A DNA stretch of 20,874 bases from a virus. Positions 1 to 20,874 of this stretch are shown piece after piece (position 1 is the stretch's first letter; each line of letters starts with the position of its first letter). The stretch covers positions 1 to 20,874 of IMG/VR virus record IMGVR_UViG_3300042335_000165; one strand, given 5' to 3'. Position numbers and translations under genes: made by a program. Under the pieces are notes generated by a model. That model worked only from the letters and a program-made list of their open reading frames with translations, did not search any database and was not told the DNA's origin.

Positions 1-162
1 ATTGAAGCGTGGATGTGCGGCAAGTCGGTGTTGAGTTACAAGTTTAACGCATCGGGCGGCATCCTCAGCAGGGAAGTATTAGCACCACCAAGCGACATCG
101 ACCTGTACAGCAGTGACCGCGTTGCTGAATCATTGATAACCATATACAATGAAATTGCTTAA
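1..162 (+). CDS. C-terminal end of an unrecognised phage protein (partial)
   Basis: An open frame runs from the first base to a TAA at 160-162 and gives 53 residues, ending in ESLITIYNEIA. The start lies outside the window. The last 14 bases overlap the start of the tail chaperone gene, so the two are probably translationally coupled and belong to one late operon. I do not recognise the fragment. Its position directly before a tail-assembly chaperone suggests a tail or virion protein, but nothing in the visible residues shows that. Confidence 0.6.
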   Translation: MEAWMCGKSVLSYKFNASGGILSREVLAPPSDIDLYSSDRVAESLITIYNEIA

Positions 163-709
163 TCGCCTAACCGTTGCCCAGTTCCAAGAACTGACCGCCA
201 TCGACCCTGATATGGGCGCATTGCGGAAAAAGGTCAACACCGTCTGCATCGTGGATGGCTTCGACCAAAATGCTGTTGAAGGGTGGACGATTGAACAGCT
301 AAACGCAAGGGCGGCAGTCATTGACGAGGAGTGCGGTGCGCTGTCGATGCTACCTGCCAAGCGGGTGGTTCGTATTGGCGGCAAGCGTTACAGGATGGAG
401 TGGTTCATAGACCAGATGAGCGCGGGGCAGATGATGGAGCTTCTAAACTATCAGTTGACGAGCGATAGGGAGGTTGTGGCGAATCTGCACCTGTTGCTCG
501 CCAGTTTAACGCGGGAGGTCACTTGGTACGGCAAGACATTGGCGTATGATGGAGGCAAGCACGCGGAAAGGGCGGAGGCGATGAAGAAGGCGAAGATGGC
601 TGACGTGTGGGGGTTTGCCTGTTTTTTTTTGCGTCATTCAGAGCCTTTATTGAAGATTATGCAGACCTATTTCGCGGAGGCGAAGAAGAAGACAGCGGGC
701 AAGGCGTAG
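149..709 (+). CDS. Tail assembly chaperone, short (0-frame) form, lambda gpG-like role
   Basis: This 186-residue protein has the layout I associate with tail-assembly chaperones of Bacteroidota phages. An N-terminal helical part (LTVAQFQEL) is followed by a GGKRYRMEWFIDQMSAGQ segment, the motif NLHLLLASL near residues 112-120, and ADVWGFACFF at 151-160. The C-terminus is lysine-rich (AEAKKKTAGKA). Such proteins bind the tape measure and load tail tube subunits during assembly. The ATG at 149 overlaps the preceding gene by 14 bases. From 622 to 630 the gene holds nine T in a row, and a second frame opens here and continues to 846, as expected for a short/long chaperone pair made by -1 frameshifting. 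The family call comes from pattern memory and has not been tested by a search. Confidence 0.65.
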   Translation: MKLLNRLTVAQFQELTAIDPDMGALRKKVNTVCIVDGFDQNAVEGWTIEQLNARAAVIDEECGALSMLPAKRVVRIGGKRYRMEWFIDQMSAGQMMELLNYQLTSDREVVANLHLLLASLTREVTWYGKTLAYDGGKHAERAEAMKKAKMADVWGFACFFLRHSEPLLKIMQTYFAEAKKKTAGKA

Positions 710-846
710 CCAAACCCGACTACGGATGGCTGGGCGTTGCGTATGTGCTGATAGCCAAGCGCGACCCTTTGAAGATGGATGCGGTGTTTGCGATGCCAGC
801 ACGGCAGTTTATGAATTACGTTCGATTGGCAAAAGACCTGCAATAG
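604..846 (+). CDS. Frameshift extension of the tail assembly chaperone (gpGT-like long form)
   Basis: This frame lies -1 to the chaperone frame. It is closed by a TGA at 601-603 and open to a TAG at 844-846. It has no convincing start of its own: the only early candidate is a GTG at 607 inside the chaperone gene, and the first residues are a low-complexity CLFFFASF stretch. If ribosomes slip one base back in the T run at 622-630, the fusion has about 232 residues: 160 from the chaperone and 72 from here. The tail part, with DYGWLGVAYVLIAKRDPLKM and then ARQFMNYVRLAKDLQ, reads like real protein and resembles the extension used by long tail chaperones to contact the tape measure. An assembly indel in the T run is the main alternative. 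Confidence 0.6.
   Translation, partial: RVGVCLFFFASFRAFIEDYADLFRGGEEEDSGQGVAKPDYGWLGVAYVLIAKRDPLKMDAVFAMPARQFMNYVRLAKDLQ
622..630 (+). promoter_or_regulatory. Probable -1 ribosomal frameshift site (T9 slippery run)
   Basis: Nine T occupy 622-630. In the chaperone frame the codons are TGT TTT TTT TTG, so the heptamer T TTT TTT sits in the right phase for tandem -1 slippage. Slippage leads straight into the open frame ending at 846. I see no clear stem-loop or pseudoknot just downstream. Confidence 0.6.
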
Positions 847-2662: not shown

Positions 2663-4902
2663 TGACGAAATTCGTTTGCTATCCTGACGCGGACAACCCA
2701 ACAGTAGGCTATGACCTTGACCTATCGCAGGATACTGACATCGCTATCACGTTCAGCGTTCAGGACTTGGCCGACATCACCAAGCGGCGCGGAGCGTTCA
2801 GCAAGACAATCGCCTTGCCATCCAGCAAAGCCAATGACATCGCCTTCCGCTATGCGTACAACGTGCAATCCTTTGTGGGCGGGTTCACGCCAAACAAGCA
2901 GGTAAAGTGCGCGCTTTGGAATGATGGGGTGCAGGTATTTCGTGGCACGATGCAGATGCTGTCGATGTCAGTAACGCGAGGGGTTGCGACTTATGAGGTT
3001 GGCATCTACGGCGAGGAGGTGAGCCTGTTCAAAGCGATGGAAGGAGTGAAACTGGTGGACACGGTGGGCGTGACTGGAATGAACCACACCTTCACCGAAT
3101 CGCTGGTGACTGGAAGTTGGGATGACACGTTCAGCGACGCAAGTGGGTTTGTTTATGGAGCAGTTGATGCGTTAGGATTACCGCATTGTTTTAACGTGCC
3201 GAACAATTATTTGGGAGGCGTAATAGCCAACGCTTATCAAAGTTTATTTAGGCTTGTGCCGATTGAAATTCAGCGACCGAATATCTGGGTGAAGAAGATG
3301 GTGGACTTGATTTTCGCGCAGCACGGATACCGCTACGAATCGACATTCTTTCAAAGCACCGAGTTTGAGCGATTAGTCATTCCATACGCAGGCGAGCCTT
3401 TTACACAGGCAAGTGGCGACAACAACTGCTATGTTCAAGCATCTGGGTATGTTAATGATGCGCCTTGGACTTACACGGTGGTTTACGACAATGATTCTGC
3501 ACCATTCACCAATTCAGGTGATGGCAAATTTGATATGGCAACAGGCGTTTATACTGCTGCAAGTGGCTATATGGGCAAGTATAATCTTGGCCTGTCATTT
3601 GGGTTCAAAAATTTATCCGTTGGCTTTACTTATGATTGGGCAATTCAAGATAGCGGTGGCACGGTTCTAAAAGACGTAGGCGGCAGGTTAATTCAAGAAA
3701 CAGGTATTGACGACCCGATATTGTTGCGCAACTATTCAATTGTTTTGGCTGGAAACGACACGTTAAAATTGGTGATAACAGCAAACAATGGCGGCATTGA
3801 ATTATTGGACAATGGCACTATTCAAATTAATTTAGTTCAGCGAATAGGATTGAATGGCGTGTCGATTGATATGCGAACGGCACTACCTGCCGACACCTTG
3901 CAGATTGACCTGCTATCCGACCTGCAAAAAATGTTCAACCTGTACTTCTACCAATCGCCGCTTGATCCAACCTTGATTTACGTCGAGCCGTTTATTGACT
4001 TCTACACATCAGGCGTTGTGGACTGGTCGCAGAAATCAGACGAAGCGCAGGAGATGCAGATGACAATGGGCGATCCTGAACTTCGCAAGCAGTTTGTCTT
4101 TGCATACCGAAACGGAGGCGAGGCACTTGCTAAAAGTTATCAAGACACTTGGCAGGAAGGTTACGGATGCAGGATTTACGACACGGACAACTTTTACGGA
4201 CAAGGTGAACAGCGGATTGAAACCAAGTGCGCGACGGTCATTCCTGCGCAATATCAAACCAATATCGTACTTGGCCGCACCTTTGACGTTGAAACCGATG
4301 GCACGTTAAGGCCGATGAAAACAGGATACCGCATAGCGCAGTACAACTACATCGAAATGACACCTGCGCCAAGTGGATCGACGCAAGATTGGTTCTATTT
4401 GCAAAATATAACACAGGCATCATCGCAAGTTACAGGCACTTTTTTGCCTTACATTGGTCACGTTGACAATCCTTATGATCCGCAACAAGACTTGGCATTT
4501 GGTATGCCGAAGCAGATTTACTTTACCCTTCCCGATGGTCAAGGCGGTTACACGCCATACACGAACAACAACCTGTTCAACGGCTACTGGAAGACCTACA
4601 TTGAGGAAATTGCAAGCAAGGAAGCGATGACCGTACAGGCCACCTTCTTGCTCACCGTTACCGACATCGCGGCACTTGACTTCCGAAAACCTGTCTACTG
4701 GCACGGCGTTAAGTGGCGACTTTTGGAAATCAGCGACTATCGGGTCGGTCAAAATGTGATGTGCCGCGTGACCCTGCGCCGCATCCTGAACCTTGCCGAA
4801 TTTACAGCGCAAACGGTAACGCCAAATTTGAATTATAACCTTGAATCCGAAGTGGATGGCGAGGTCATTCCAACATACACAACACCAGTACAGGTACGCT
4901 AA
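2659..4902 (+). CDS. Large tail protein, probable tail hub/baseplate component
   Basis: The 747-residue product begins with a beta-rich domain carrying RRGAFSKTIALPSSKAND near residues 43-60, a motif I associate with large tail hub-like proteins of Bacteroidota phages. The C-terminal third again looks conserved, with FRKPVYWHGVKWRLLEISDY and then CRVTLRRIL, as in hub proteins that present a platform at the tail tip. The start is in an ATGA overlap and the stop in a TAATG overlap with the tape measure gene. The middle (about 3180-3860) is visibly richer in A+T than both ends and may be an exchanged domain. Hub identity is an inference from position next to the tape measure and from motif memory. 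Confidence 0.55.
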   Translation: MMTKFVCYPDADNPTVGYDLDLSQDTDIAITFSVQDLADITKRRGAFSKTIALPSSKANDIAFRYAYNVQSFVGGFTPNKQVKCALWNDGVQVFRGTMQMLSMSVTRGVATYEVGIYGEEVSLFKAMEGVKLVDTVGVTGMNHTFTESLVTGSWDDTFSDASGFVYGAVDALGLPHCFNVPNNYLGGVIANAYQSLFRLVPIEIQRPNIWVKKMVDLIFAQHGYRYESTFFQSTEFERLVIPYAGEPFTQASGDNNCYVQASGYVNDAPWTYTVVYDNDSAPFTNSGDGKFDMATGVYTAASGYMGKYNLGLSFGFKNLSVGFTYDWAIQDSGGTVLKDVGGRLIQETGIDDPILLRNYSIVLAGNDTLKLVITANNGGIELLDNGTIQINLVQRIGLNGVSIDMRTALPADTLQIDLLSDLQKMFNLYFYQSPLDPTLIYVEPFIDFYTSGVVDWSQKSDEAQEMQMTMGDPELRKQFVFAYRNGGEALAKSYQDTWQEGYGCRIYDTDNFYGQGEQRIETKCATVIPAQYQTNIVLGRTFDVETDGTLRPMKTGYRIAQYNYIEMTPAPSGSTQDWFYLQNITQASSQVTGTFLPYIGHVDNPYDPQQDLAFGMPKQIYFTLPDGQGGYTPYTNNNLFNGYWKTYIEEIASKEAMTVQATFLLTVTDIAALDFRKPVYWHGVKWRLLEISDYRVGQNVMCRVTLRRILNLAEFTAQTVTPNLNYNLESEVDGEVIPTYTTPVQVR

Positions 4903-6491
4903 TGGCAGATATAAAAAACACCGTTGTCGTTGGTCTTCGATTGGAAGACGAAACGCAGAAAGGCACGCAATCGGCAAGGTCGCAACTTAAATCGTTGCGC
5001 GAGGAGATGTTGCAGCTCGAACAAACAGGGCAACGCAACACTGACCGCTTCCGCGAGTTGCAAGCGCAGGCGGGTGGACTTGCTGACCAAATTGGCGACA
5101 CGCAGGCGCAAATCAAGGCGATGGCTTCCGACACGAGAACGCTGGACACCTTGCTTGGCGTGGGTCAAGGCTTGGCAGGTGCATTCGCAGTGGCGCAGGG
5201 TGCGGCGGCGTTGTTTGGCGATGAGAATGAGGACTTGCAGAAGGCGATGATGAAGGTGCAGGGTGCATTGGCGTTGCTGAACGGCGTGCAGGCGGTCGCT
5301 AACGTGTTGAACAAGGATTCGGCTGTAATGGTGAATCTGAACGTGGTGGCACAGCGAGCGTATGCGTTGGCAGTTGGCACGAGCACAGGCGCGATGAAGG
5401 CATTTAGGTTGGCATTGGTTGCGACTGGAATTGGCGCGGCTGTGGTGGCTATTGGCTTGCTGATTGAGAACTTCGATAAGCTAACGGGTGCGGTCAAGCG
5501 TTTCCTTGGCATCAAGACCGAAAGCAACAAGGCGATTGCCGATGGCACGCAGGCGATGGAGCGGGAGATTGAAATATTGAAGGCACGAGGTGCAAGTCAG
5601 GAGCAAATCTTTGCGCGGGAGTTTGACCTGTCGCGTGAACGGATGCGGATGGCGAAAACTGCAGAAGAACAAGAAGAAGCACGTCACCAGCACAACTTGC
5701 TACGGGCGCAGTACGAAACATACCTTAAAGAACAGCAACTTAAAAAGCAGGAAGAAAACCAAAAGGCGCACGATACGCGGATGATTGAACAGCGGAAGAT
5801 TCGTGAAAAGGCGTTGAAGGATGCGGAGGATTTGGTGTACTTGGAGCGCGTAGATGGCCTGACGCAATTTCTTGAAATCGCGGAGACGCAAGAGCAGGGG
5901 TTGCACGTAATTAAGCGGAATGGCGTTGACGCGATGCTCAAGGAATCAGAAAGGCAGCGGCAGCGCGAGGAGCAGATTGAGCAAGCGAAAATTGAGACGG
6001 CAAGGCTGGGCTTTCAGACCATTGGCAATCTTGCGACCTTGTTTGCAGGCAAGACCGAGCAGGGACAACGCCGTGCCTTTGAGGTCAACAAGAAGATGAA
6101 TATGGCAATTGCGCTGATTGAGACCTTCCGTGCGGCGCAGGCGGCGTACTTAAGCCAAATGACTATACCCGACCCTTCCGCACCCGTTCGTGCGGTCATC
6201 GCGGCGGCAGCGGCAACAGCGGCAGGGTTGGTGCGAGTTGCGCAAATCAGCAAGCAGCAATTTCAATCGCCAAGCGGCGGCGGTGGAGGTGGAGGCGGTG
6301 GTTCAATGGGAGGCGGTGAAGGCGGAGGAGGTATGTCCGCGCCAACAGCAACCAACCCGAATGCGCAACTGCTCAACCCACCTGCTAACGGACAAAACTC
6401 AGGGATGCGGGCGTATGTGGTTGAATCAGACATCCGCTCGGTTAGTGGCAGGCTACGGCGAATGAGTGAATTTGCAACGTTAGGCGCGTAG
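4902..6491 (+). CDS. Tail tape measure protein
   Basis: The 529-residue protein shows the tape measure pattern. A long charged helical start (QLKSLREEMLQLEQTGQ and following) is followed by hydrophobic Ala/Gly-rich segments near residues 85-107 and 170-188 (ATGIGAAVVAIGLLIENF). Then comes a long Glu/Lys/Arg/Gln coiled-coil region to about residue 375 and another Ala-rich stretch. Near residue 457 is a run of nine glycines with further glycine clusters. Tape measures set tail length at about 0.15 nm per residue, so this one would predict a tail near 80 nm, which is short. Its position after the hub-like gene and the upstream frameshifted chaperone fit this call. Confidence 0.8.
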   Translation: MADIKNTVVVGLRLEDETQKGTQSARSQLKSLREEMLQLEQTGQRNTDRFRELQAQAGGLADQIGDTQAQIKAMASDTRTLDTLLGVGQGLAGAFAVAQGAAALFGDENEDLQKAMMKVQGALALLNGVQAVANVLNKDSAVMVNLNVVAQRAYALAVGTSTGAMKAFRLALVATGIGAAVVAIGLLIENFDKLTGAVKRFLGIKTESNKAIADGTQAMEREIEILKARGASQEQIFAREFDLSRERMRMAKTAEEQEEARHQHNLLRAQYETYLKEQQLKKQEENQKAHDTRMIEQRKIREKALKDAEDLVYLERVDGLTQFLEIAETQEQGLHVIKRNGVDAMLKESERQRQREEQIEQAKIETARLGFQTIGNLATLFAGKTEQGQRRAFEVNKKMNMAIALIETFRAAQAAYLSQMTIPDPSAPVRAVIAAAAATAAGLVRVAQISKQQFQSPSGGGGGGGGGSMGGGEGGGGMSAPTATNPNAQLLNPPANGQNSGMRAYVVESDIRSVSGRLRRMSEFATLGA

Positions 6492-10453: not shown

Positions 10454-11260
10454 ATGCTATACCTGAAAGCCAGCCAATCGAATACTATCAACGTCACGTG
10501 GACTGAACGCGCAACCAACGCGACCATCTACAAGTTGATACTGACCAACATCGCCAAGAACACCAGCACGGCGGTGTACATTGACGCGATTAGCAACGCA
10601 TCCAGTTACGAGGAGAGATATGACCGCTTCACCTTCACGCTTGGCGCATTGGAGAAGGGGCAGTATAAATACGAGGTGTATCAGGATGCTAACGGCTACG
10701 CGGCAGGTGATACCCTTGGTGGCGGCTTGTTCGTGTTTGAAGATGGCGGCTATGCGTACATTAGTGCGGCGGCTGACCAAAGCACGAATGCGCCTTGGGG
10801 GTGTCAGGGGACTTTGATACTGGAAGGCGCATCACCCGAAGCGATTGGTCAGGGCCTAATTAACACCGCAACAATCGTTGCAGGTTGCGCCACATCGGGT
10901 ATAAGCGCGAGGCTTTGCGATGAATTGATACTGAACGGGTATAGCGATTGGTTTCTTCCTTCGCTTGATGAATTGTCCGAAATGTACACCAAATTGAAGG
11001 TGAACGGCTTCGGCAACTTCGCAAATCACACCTATTGGTCATCAACGCAAGCCGATGCTAATCAGGCTTTCACAGTGAATATGAATAACGGCAATCAAGG
11101 CACGCATTCAAAGGGTAGCACGTCAAATCGCTACACAAGAGCGATGCGGAGATTCCTGATGGGAACGCCAAGGGTCGTGGAAACAGGATTGGCCTACATT
11201 GAACCCGCAGTTGAAACCTACGTTGCACCAAGTAACAACAACACCTATGTCAGCTTCTAA
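10454..11260 (+). CDS. Ig-like plus DUF1566 (Lcl C-terminal-like) protein, candidate surface or receptor-binding protein
   Basis: The 268-residue product has two parts. Residues 1 to about 100 look like a beta-sandwich: NTINVTWTERATNATIYKL, then YDRFTFTLGALEKGQYKYEVYQ. Residues about 100-236 match DUF1566/Lcl-type domains, with GYSDWFLPSLDELSEMY, TYWSSTQADANQAFTVNM and RYTRAMRRF. This fold is related to the C-type lectin/FGE group often displayed on surfaces for ligand binding. I chose the ATG at 10454, six bases after a GTGGTATTTA motif, over the TTG three bases earlier. There is no signal peptide, as expected for a virion protein. The gene overlaps the portal start by 14 bases. A head decoration or tail tip role is inferred, not shown. 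Confidence 0.6.
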   Translation: MLYLKASQSNTINVTWTERATNATIYKLILTNIAKNTSTAVYIDAISNASSYEERYDRFTFTLGALEKGQYKYEVYQDANGYAAGDTLGGGLFVFEDGGYAYISAAADQSTNAPWGCQGTLILEGASPEAIGQGLINTATIVAGCATSGISARLCDELILNGYSDWFLPSLDELSEMYTKLKVNGFGNFANHTYWSSTQADANQAFTVNMNNGNQGTHSKGSTSNRYTRAMRRFLMGTPRVVETGLAYIEPAVETYVAPSNNNTYVSF

Positions 11261-13298
11261 ATTCGCATTCAGTTTCATCCCGACCACCGACTATCAGTTG
11301 CCTGTAATGCTTGAAAACAAGCAGGCCAATATGGTGCTGTTTGGTGAGCGCAACGAATACCCCTACTATCTGCTTGACAACTACCACAAAAGCGCGAAGC
11401 ACTGCGCCATCGTCAATGGCAAGGTTCACTACATCGTAGGCAAGGGATGGAAGGCGAGCGATAAAGGTACAGTTGAACAGCAAGCACGTGCGGAGGAGTT
11501 CATCCGCGACCCCAACGTTGAGGATGATTTGAACGACTTGACCGAGAAGTTGGTGCTGGATTTGGAGTTGTTTAACGGCTTCGCGCTCGCAGTGACGTGG
11601 AATCGTGGCGGTGGCATCGCCTTTGTTGAACACGTTCCATTCCAAAAGGTGCGAGTTAGTTTGGATGATGAGATGTTCCTGATTGCTGACTGGTACGATG
11701 CACGTATGATTCAGCAATTTCCAAAGGGCAACGAGGTGGAGAAGATGCCGAAATTCGATGAGAAGAATCGCGTTGGAAAGCAAATGTTTTACTACCGCCA
11801 CTATTCGGCAGGCGTTCAGCACTACCCGCTTCCTAACTACCAAGGTGCGCTCGCTTACATTGAGTGCGATGCGGAGATAGCGCGCTTCCACATCAACAAC
11901 ATCCGCAACCAGTTTTGGGGTGGGCAGTTGATAAACTTCGCTGATGGCATCCCGACTGAGGAAGAAAAAGATGAGATTGAGCGGATGATGCGCCGCAAGT
12001 TCAGCGGTGCGGGGAATGCGGGTAGATTCGTGCTGACGTTTAGTAGCGGAAAGGAAAGCGCGCCGAGCATCCAATCGCTAACGCCGAGCGATTTGGACAA
12101 GCAGTTTGACCTGCTGAACAAGCAGATTCAGGAGGAAATATTTGTGGCGCATAACGTCACCAACCCGATGCTGTTTGGCGTGAAAACCGAAGGGCAGTTG
12201 GGAGGTCGTAAGGAATTGATTGAGGCTTACGAACTTTTCAAAAACACCTACATCAACGCGCGGGTGATGATTGTGGAAAGGATGATTAACTACATCGCAG
12301 GGTTTAACGACATCGAAGGCTTGTATTTATGCCCTACCGACCCAGTGACCGAGCAGTTAAGCGAACAGGTGCTGACGCAGATAATGACGCGCAACGAACT
12401 GCGCGAGAAGGCAGGCCTTGAACCGCTTGAAGAAGAAGCCACGCAACCCGAAGGCGCACCTGCGGCGGAGGCATTGGCGAGCGAGCCAGTGAACGAAGCA
12501 CTGCGGACGATGACAGGGCGGCAGTTTCAGCACCTAATGCGGATAGTGCGCAACTTCCAGTCGGGCAAGATTAGCGAGGCGCAGGCCCGCACGATGTTGG
12601 GCAGTGGCTTTGGCTTGACCGCCGAGCAGATTAACGACTTCCTGACTGATAGACAGGCCGAGTTCAGCGCACAGGGCGAAGATGCAGAGATGCGGATGTT
12701 GGCGGCGATTGGTGCGCAGTACGGCGATGACGCGGAAGCCTTTGACGTGGTGGACCAATGGGAGTTGGCATTGGAAGGCGACCCTGAAACCTTTGCGGTC
12801 GATGAGGAGGAGGAGAAGTTGGACAAGCGGATAATGGCCTATCGCAAGAAGAACAGGCTGGCAACGGTCAAAGAAATAGCCGAGGCGTTGAAGGTCAGCC
12901 CTGCGAAGATTCGCAAACGGATTGCCTATCTGCTGGAAAAAAACCGCTTCCCGATTAGCCGCGATATTGACATCGCAACGAAAGAAACGCCAGTTGAGGA
13001 GGAAGTGGTGGAGGTGCGCTATCGCTACGATTGGCGGCCAGAATATGCAGGATTGAGCAAGGCGGATGGCTACGACAAAAGCCGCAAGTTCTGCCAAACA
13101 ATGCTGGATTTGAGCGCGACAAAGTTGTACACAAGGAGCGATATAAACGACATCGGGCAGTTGGTTGGCTGGAATGTTTGGGAGCGCAGAGGCGGGTGGT
13201 TCACGCTTCCGAACGGCAACCACAGGCCAAGTTGCAGACATATGTGGGTTCAGCAGTTAGTGGTTAAAAAAGGAACAACGGTTAAAAGAGTAGTATGA
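11247..13298 (+). CDS. Portal protein with C-terminal HTH-like and MuF-like extension
   Basis: Residues 1 to about 385 of this 683-residue protein look like a portal: AIVNGKVHYIVGKGW, LDLELFNGFALAVTWN, EIARFHINNIRNQFWGG, and VTNPMLFGVKTEGQLGGR near 303-320, followed by the long wing helix. Portals form the ring through which DNA enters and to which the neck attaches. The extension holds a helical segment with SEAQARTMLGSGFGLT (about 442-457). A winged-helix-like stretch (LATVKEIAEALKVSP, from about 538) follows. A C-terminal part with SRKFCQTML and then NHRPSCRHMW recalls MuF-type minor head proteins. The start is the ATG at 11247, inside the end of the previous gene. An in-frame upstream start at 11199 would extend the overlap and is less likely. 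Confidence 0.75.
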   Translation: MSASKFAFSFIPTTDYQLPVMLENKQANMVLFGERNEYPYYLLDNYHKSAKHCAIVNGKVHYIVGKGWKASDKGTVEQQARAEEFIRDPNVEDDLNDLTEKLVLDLELFNGFALAVTWNRGGGIAFVEHVPFQKVRVSLDDEMFLIADWYDARMIQQFPKGNEVEKMPKFDEKNRVGKQMFYYRHYSAGVQHYPLPNYQGALAYIECDAEIARFHINNIRNQFWGGQLINFADGIPTEEEKDEIERMMRRKFSGAGNAGRFVLTFSSGKESAPSIQSLTPSDLDKQFDLLNKQIQEEIFVAHNVTNPMLFGVKTEGQLGGRKELIEAYELFKNTYINARVMIVERMINYIAGFNDIEGLYLCPTDPVTEQLSEQVLTQIMTRNELREKAGLEPLEEEATQPEGAPAAEALASEPVNEALRTMTGRQFQHLMRIVRNFQSGKISEAQARTMLGSGFGLTAEQINDFLTDRQAEFSAQGEDAEMRMLAAIGAQYGDDAEAFDVVDQWELALEGDPETFAVDEEEEKLDKRIMAYRKKNRLATVKEIAEALKVSPAKIRKRIAYLLEKNRFPISRDIDIATKETPVEEEVVEVRYRYDWRPEYAGLSKADGYDKSRKFCQTMLDLSATKLYTRSDINDIGQLVGWNVWERRGGWFTLPNGNHRPSCRHMWVQQLVVKKGTTVKRVV

Positions 13299-18982: not shown

Positions 18983-19021
18983 CGAGGCTTCGCGAAGGGG
19001 TCGTTTCTAAACTTTTTTTTT
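18983..19021 (+). terminator. Possible weak terminator after the lysis genes
   Basis: An imperfect hairpin (CGA/TCG outer pairs and CTT/AAG inner pairs around CGCG, 18983-19003) is followed, after TTTCTAAAC, by a run of nine T (19013-19021). The distance from stem to T run is too long for a textbook terminator. The place, after the last late gene, makes it plausible. Confidence 0.3.
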
Positions 19022-19094
19022 GGAAAGTGCGTTTAGACGCTGGAAACGCAGAAAAAAAAATAAAAAAAAGTATACAACCTATATATATATGTAT

Positions 19095-20412: not shown

Positions 20413-20545
20413 ACCTTTAATGCAACTTACTTCCGTGTACTGCGAGGCTGACACCCTCAACTTATGCCGCGCGCGATTTGGCACGATACGCGCCGCGTTA
20501 AACTATGCTGCCAACCAAACACAAACTAAACCCTTAAATCAATGA
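20381..20545 (+). CDS. Small basic hypothetical protein (54 aa)
   Basis: ATG 20381 opens a 54-residue frame: MKNTSKTKTVKPLMQLTSVY, then CEADTLNLCRARFGTIRAAL and NYAANQTQTKPLNQ. The first 32 bases overlap the membrane gene, and the stop forms an ATGA overlap with the final gene. The start is preceded by a promoter-like element at good distance. The protein is basic with a short helical core. Its C-terminal codons contain the repeated leader AAACCCTTAAATC of the next gene, so the far end may be constrained by that signal and not by the protein. Function unknown. Confidence 0.45.
   Translation: MKNTSKTKTVKPLMQLTSVYCEADTLNLCRARFGTIRAALNYAANQTQTKPLNQ
20528..20540 (+). repeat. Leader repeat AAACCCTTAAATC, copy 2
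   Basis: Exact copy of 9359-9371, ending one base before the ATG at 20542. It suggests a shared translation or early-expression signal for this gene and the glycosyltransferase. Confidence 0.5.
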
Positions 20546-20874
20546 CATTTACAGAATATTTAAAATCCATTAACGCCTGCTCCGATGCAATTGAGTGGGC
20601 AGAAAGTAAAACAGTCGAAGAGGTTGTCGCTACCTGCCACCGCGGCGATTGGTTGCTGTGGCTCGCATATAAATGCGACATCGGACTGCAACCATTAACA
20701 CTTGCAAAAGGGCACTGCGCCAACACCGTTAGGCACTTGATGAATGACGATAGAAGCCTTAAAGCAGTTGACACTGCGATTGCTTTTGGCGAAGGCAGGG
20801 CAACACGCGAGGAGTTAGATGCTGCCTATGCCGCTGCCTATGCCGCTGCCTATGCCGCTGTCGATGCCGCTGCC
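20542..20874 (+). CDS. Imm5-like protein with Ala/Tyr repeats (partial, 3' end outside window)
   Basis: The visible 111 residues read MTFTEYLKSINACSDAIEW, then CHRGDWLLWLAYKCD, LTLAKGHCANTVRHLMNDDR and AIAFGEGRATREELDAAYAA. The pattern A-C-x-x-A, G-D-W-L-L-W, C-A-x-x-V-x-x-L-M-x-D-x-R-S followed by a run of Ala-rich repeats is one I associate with a phage and bacterial family linked to the putative immunity protein Imm5; the link is from memory. The end contains a 12-base tandem repeat. The gene starts in an ATGA overlap and runs off the window. Its biochemical role is unknown. Confidence 0.7.
   Translation, partial: MTFTEYLKSINACSDAIEWAESKTVEEVVATCHRGDWLLWLAYKCDIGLQPLTLAKGHCANTVRHLMNDDRSLKAVDTAIAFGEGRATREELDAAYAAAYAAAYAAVDAAA
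20821..20874 (+). repeat. 12-bp tandem repeat coding Ala-Ala-Tyr-Ala
   Basis: The unit GCTGCCTATGCC occurs three times exactly (20821-20856), then once as GCTGTCGATGCC, then half a unit to the window edge. It keeps the frame of the Imm5-like gene, so copy-number change would lengthen or shorten the protein in steps of four residues. Confidence 0.85.

Follow-up and report, generated by a model that had tools for sequence, protein, structure and literature searches.

Known systems and the present locus

Frameshifted tail chaperones are already known, and the gene of a G/GT-type chaperone usually has the major tail (tube) gene on one side and the tape measure gene on the other. In phage lambda, a late -1 ribosomal slip in G/GT gives rise to a longer, minor product that carries a second domain (PMC5009743). 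In phage P2, E and E+E' are a short and a long tail protein with a common N-terminus, and the long form arises by a -1 slip on TTTTTTG in the absence of a downstream structure (PMC3091744). In E. coli, -1 slippage on the heptamer U_UUU_UUU is weak (PMC5009743). RNA polymerase can also slip on such runs: in Shigella mxiE, two overlapping ORFs are joined by a U added at a nine-T run (PMC1088944, PMC6260861). Nine is the usual slippage threshold and the length at which many bacteria avoid A/T runs, and the mxiE T9 is a used site (PMC1088944, PMC3711429, PMC6260861).

Here, we analyzed the whole 20,874-base virus record IMGVR_UViG_3300042335_000165 (positions 1 to 20,874; hereafter the window), which carries a candidate two-form tail protein with a T9 run. 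The locus resembles lambda G/GT in its predicted late -1 slip, by which a minor long product would gain a second domain, but it has another slippery site and no sequence match, and its relatives, unlike lambda, encode both C-termini on the same DNA for up to ~250 nt. It resembles P2 in its predicted short and long products with a common N-terminus and slip on a T run, no downstream structure having been found in either, but there is no detectable sequence relation; whereas P2 slips on T_TTT_TTG in genes between the tape measure and the tube, the predicted site here is T_TTT_TTT within an invariant T9, at another gene position. The nine-T run and the overlapping ORFs recall mxiE, although that gene is unrelated and polymerase slippage, established there, is only a candidate here. 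Lastly, gp38-gp39 of the Nonlabens phages P12024S and P12024L are homologous to the window's pair on the evidence of predicted fold and -1 domain, and have a T9 with the -1 frame open through it, but the first T of their run is at codon position 2 instead of 3, and the records give two genes with no frameshift noted. As far as the literature searched shows, the large family and the invariant T9 in two codon phases described below appear to be new, as do a probable corrected gene model for P12024S and P12024L and a largely dual-coded second domain in relatives.

Reading frames around the T9 run

The initial annotation had placed the run in the chaperone frame as TGT TTT TTT TTG at 620-631, and this is in frame with ORF 149-709. 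As it also described, the -1 frame has no stop from 604, after TGA 601-603, until TAG 844-846, and the 0 frame continues for 81 nt from TTG (629) through the end of its stop (709). It gave the -1 frame no good start codon of its own; a GTG is present at 607, but it is a byproduct of a 0-frame Val-Trp pair (GTN TGG, which contains NTG in the -1 frame) and is replaced by CTG in the relative L024. The features of the locus are as follows.

149-709, + strand: 0-frame gene for the chaperone-like 186-aa short product, the predicted major form (ORF list; 64 unique full-length window-type relatives; AlphaFold2 model with mean pLDDT 82)
622-630, + strand: T9 slip site, with the T_TTT_TTT heptamer at 622-628 (sequence and exact conservation in relatives)
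604-846, + strand: -1 open frame, predicted to be coding from the slip (628) to TAG 844-846 as a second C-terminal domain (conservation in relatives)
149-628 plus the -1 frame to TAG 844-846, + strand: predicted fusion of 232 aa (conservation of both frames)
631-709, + strand: dual-frame stretch (variation suppressed at codon positions 1, 2, and 3 alike)

According to the proposed mechanism, ORF 149-709 would give the short protein most of the time, and we infer that this is the major form. Ribosomes decoding TTT TTT (623-628) after T622 would occasionally slip one base back on T_TTT_TTT and continue in the -1 frame to 846, yielding a minor 232-aa form in which the first 160 residues, common to the short form, would be followed by a different, conserved domain. 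The junction peptide is predicted to be MADVWGFACFFFASFR if the slip occurs at T_TTT_TTT or if the transcript contains U10, and MADVWGFACFFLASFR if it occurs at T_TTT_TTG.

The T9 run by itself is unremarkable, because three such runs were observed on either strand of the window versus 0.78 expected by chance; only one of them lies in ORF 149-709. The runs at 19013 (+) and 19052 (-) fall in an A/T-rich stretch between larger genes (19013-19060), perhaps a terminator region.

Conservation of the run and of both frames

Twenty-four viral contigs encode a 0-frame protein 86-100% identical to that of the window (clade A), and T9 has the same codon phase in all 24. The -1 frame and its C-terminal sequence KPDYGWLGVAYVLIAKRDPLKMDAVFAMPARQFMNYVRLAKDLQ are kept in every one of these contigs long enough to show them, the C-terminal 44 aa of the -1 frame being invariant, and the length of the overlap changes by a single whole codon and in no other way. 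More distant relatives, found by searching with the -1 domain and with a neighboring gene, comprised clade B (46 unique genes, with a 0-frame protein ~46% identical to that of the window) and clade C (L037, ~28% identical), and the -1 domain retains 18 invariant columns as far out as L037. Among window-type sequences, exact T9 in the same codon phase was present in all of the unique contexts (56/56) and all of the unique full-length genes (64/64). A run of 8 or 10 Ts occurred in none of the window-type relatives, and none of the relatives seen had the two parts in one continuous frame; together with the conservation of the -1 frame, the outcome of all three checks supports the interpretation in the initial annotation. 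No isolate-phage relative was found by tblastn with the window protein, and no relative in bacterial genomes was found with the portal profile or the chaperone profile.

The codon that opens the run is TGT in clade A, GCT in clade B, and GGT in clade C, and its third position is always T. TGT was used at the run in 17/17 clade A sequences versus 3/34 of the Cys codons elsewhere, and GCT in 46/46 clade B sequences versus 64/705 of the Ala codons elsewhere; these counts are not independent within a clade, because the sequences are related, but the three clades agree.

The variability of the codon positions was counted in 45 clade B genes of one length. Before the slip, codon positions 1, 2, and 3 were variable at 56, 42, and 133 of 160, respectively; none of the 12 positions in the four slip codons varied; and in the overlap, the counts were 2, 10, and 5 of 27. 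Downstream of the overlap, positions 1, 2, and 3 were variable at 5/44, 33/44, and 9/43, the high value belonging to 0-frame position 2, which is the wobble position of the -1 frame. The pattern in clade A is similar. Such a distribution would be expected from reading of the 0 frame as far as T9, of the two frames immediately afterward, and then of the -1 frame. These comparisons show both frames to be under protein-level selection, with the frame switch at T9 and T9 itself kept as a nucleotide sequence.

Homopolymers are error-prone in assembly, and a true run of 8 or 10 Ts would place the two parts in a single continuous frame. However, T9 was present in ~180 unique sequences from many samples, as well as in two deposited isolate genomes, and selection acts on both frames across the overlap. 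Because T9 recurs in so many separate assemblies, a miscounted T is very unlikely, and we assign an artefact a negligible probability.

Nonlabens phages and the larger family

The matches of the 0-frame AlphaFold2 model in BFVD were viral proteins with no annotated function, 30 of them with E values up to 0.001. They included I6R9M9 of Nonlabens phage P12024S (TM 0.65), which, from its length of 175 aa, would correspond to gp38. The gp38 gene comes after the terminase gene and contains T9 as CTT TTT TTT TAT. The -1 frame is open through T9 into gp39, which is annotated as a separate gene and whose ATG coincides with the gp38 stop; the arrangement in P12024L is alike.

P12024S, NC_018271.1 23136-23830 (L174:1237-1931): gp38-gp39, annotated as two genes
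P12024L, NC_018272.1 23946-24640 (L175:2047-2741): corresponding pair, annotated as two genes

Each pair is probably a single gene with a -1 slip at T9, which suggests a corrected gene model for these two cultured marine phages. A very large and so far unlabelled phage family, with these two as cultured members, thereby joins the two-form tail proteins.

A scan with gp38 found 63 relatives, and a scan with the -1 domain, which is blind to the slip site, found at least 583; only the best 80 of these were kept, so that the most divergent members were unseen. Across all groups, the -1 domains can be aligned and have F-R, G-W, and D positions in common, and the Nonlabens-type relatives match only families of unknown function (phrog_32199 and phrog_38404). 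Among the matches listed, the 165 unique upstream protein parts formed 14 clusters at 50% identity, and sequences with the F-x-x-x-WGWY motif had T9 in 118 of 119 unique cases and T10 in one. The first T of the run occupies codon position 3 in window-type sequences (flanking residues C/A/G-FF-L) but position 2 in those of the Nonlabens type (V/L/I-FF-Y/W), a clean natural case of a homopolymer held at exactly nine in two codon phases.

When the DNA was scanned for six or more Ts before ATCRTTTRGG, the runs preceding a -1 domain were T9 in 83 cases and T10 in two, and no T7 or T8 preceded a -1 domain. The same scan returned 11 further T9 matches without the literal GW motif and five matches cut by contig ends. 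One T6 match passed the crude GW filter but was rejected as a chance match, its upstream frame being only ten codons long. A similar T run was absent from the examined genes of one Bacteroides phage and one Porphyromonas phage. The similarities to Nonlabens, Porphyromonas, and Bacteroides phages suggest that the host of the window phage belongs to the Bacteroidetes.

These sequences also bear on whether the two frames are fused at all. The -1 frame might be translated alone from an internal start, as annotated for gp39; candidate starts are the gp39 ATG at the gp38 stop, the GTG at 607 of the window, and, in most window-type relatives, a GTG or TTG ahead of the run. However, the GTG and TTG codons are dictated by the 0-frame Val-Trp codons, and the CTG of L024 takes their place there. 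Moreover, among the matches listed, the -1 frame from its preceding stop to T9 is free of ATG, GTG, and TTG in 128 of 143 Nonlabens-type sequences, despite the conservation of the residues right after T9 (LSFR), which could therefore hardly be made without slippage. An internal start also leaves the invariant T9 unexplained. We consider translation of the -1 frame alone very improbable; as the main route, an independent start was rejected on the basis of the CTG of L024 and the 128 sequences without a start. Even taken together, the absence of a fusion and an artefact are improbable.

Probable slippage by the ribosome or by RNA polymerase

On the comparative data, a fusion made by slippage at T9, at the level of either the ribosome or the polymerase, is nearly certain. 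We lean toward a -1 slip by the ribosome, for which lambda G/GT and P2 E/E' are the precedents. T_TTT_TTT is the only heptamer common to all groups and is in frame in all of them. The P2-like T_TTT_TTG, considered as the sole heptamer, is possible in the window but was rejected, because P12024S has TAT as its next codon and so lacks this heptamer. The initial annotation suggested a plain poly-T slip without a visible downstream structure, and a search for a downstream stem-loop or pseudoknot in the RNA yielded nothing significant or covarying. Against the ribosome stand the weakness of the heptamer in E. coli and the lack of a stimulating structure in that search. In addition, the heptamer alone would not need exactly nine Ts, yet shorter runs (T7 or T8) were not seen.

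Alternatively, RNA polymerase may insert a single U into T9 (or omit two), and ordinary translation of this fraction of the mRNAs would give the same fusion, which we regard as a serious but less probable alternative. The run is a conserved A/T run of about nine or more; its length is exactly nine in both codon phases although the flanking residues differ, with one or two T10s, and T7 and T8 not found; polymerase slippage needs no downstream structure, consistent with the negative search. However, the lambda and P2 precedents are ribosomal, the flanking residues may alone fix the run length if they are kept for protein reasons, and transcriptional slippage on T9 would be expected to yield other frames too. 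To our knowledge, the characterized tail chaperones (lambda, P2) slip on the ribosome. Codon phase cannot distinguish the two, because any T9 holds T_TTT_TTT in frame, and both the ribosome and the polymerase could contribute. The question is directly testable in an existing laboratory phage. We offer only as a tentative and rather doubtful proposal that a large lineage of tailed phages, apparently infecting Bacteroidetes, sets its chaperone ratio by polymerase slippage on an exact T9 rather than by ribosomal frameshifting, many members carrying two distinct conserved C-terminal domains on the same ~170-255 bases.

Dual coding of the second domain in relatives

The dual-coded stretch of the window itself is short (631-709). 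The 0 frame of many Nonlabens-type relatives stays open for 168-255 nt beyond the slip site, which places the greater part of the -1 domain in two frames. In L196-L239 (e.g., L212), the extension is 240-255 nt and ends ~25-40 nt before the end of the -1 frame, so that nearly the whole second domain is coded in two frames, both of which are conserved. In 17 genes of one length, third positions were variable at 91/161 before the slip, and in the overlap, positions 1, 2, and 3 were variable at 2, 14, and 9 of 83. When one protein was kept and its codons were drawn at random, the chance that the other frame stayed open was below about 0.02 for representatives with a long overlap, apart from one value of 0.04. 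The mean pairwise identity among 12 representatives was 37% for the 0-frame extension and 51% for the -1 domain, and by this measure both are recognizably conserved. Relatives with a largely dual-coded second domain offer a good system for studying overlapping genes.

Predicted function and gene neighborhood

The chaperone-like gene follows the terminase and cargo genes, and three genes separate it from a tape-measure-like gene, the product of which resembles the N-terminal part of Porphyromonas phage tape measures. The tail genes downstream are as follows.

879-1472, + strand: next gene, HK97-gp10-like or Neck1-like tail or connector protein (weak match to phrog_5, E 0.0052; PF04883 below the cut-off)
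4902-6491, + strand: tape-measure-like gene, the fourth after the chaperone-like gene (phrog_9483, tail length tape measure, E 2.3e-9)

Because the gene does not lie between tube and tape measure genes, as is usual for G/GT-type chaperones, we name the product chaperone-like and do not file it as a proven member. Neither part of the window protein had a family match in Pfam or PHROGs, searches of Pfam and the PDB with -1-domain profiles were uninformative, and a Foldseek search of the PDB gave no significant match for the 0-frame model. When 289 PDB chains were re-aligned, the HK97 tail assembly chaperone 2ob9 ranked first, with a weak score (Z 4.1 over 58 residues). The neighborhood, the two-form anatomy, and this weak fold match indicate that the protein pair is likely a tail chaperone. 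By analogy with lambda gpG/gpGT, the common part may act on the tape measure and the -1 domain may recruit the tube protein.

Whichever way the slip is made, the two-form protein could be real and yet have another job in head or tail assembly. Its gene is placed downstream of the terminase region and well ahead of the tape measure, outside the usual interval, and no Pfam or PHROG function was assigned, both of which would suit such a role. Against it stand the first rank of 2ob9, weak as it is, the tail genes just downstream, and the two-form expression by a late -1 slip, which is a hallmark of tail chaperones. We consider this other role unlikely, and retain the tail chaperone as the preferred assignment.

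The content of the interval between the terminase gene and the chaperone-like gene differs among relatives. It includes genes that, by inspection of their sequences, resemble those of glycosyltransferases, sugar-nucleotide enzymes, and methyltransferases (window 1-162, L024:4690-6014, and L037:1343-4480). Elsewhere in the window, a portal-like protein of 699 aa (11199-13298) has a C-terminal part with weak winged-helix-like matches, which is unusual for a portal, and an ORF at 20542-20874, cut by the right end of the record, has Ala/Tyr-rich repeats (AAYAAAYAAAYAAVDAAA) as its last part.
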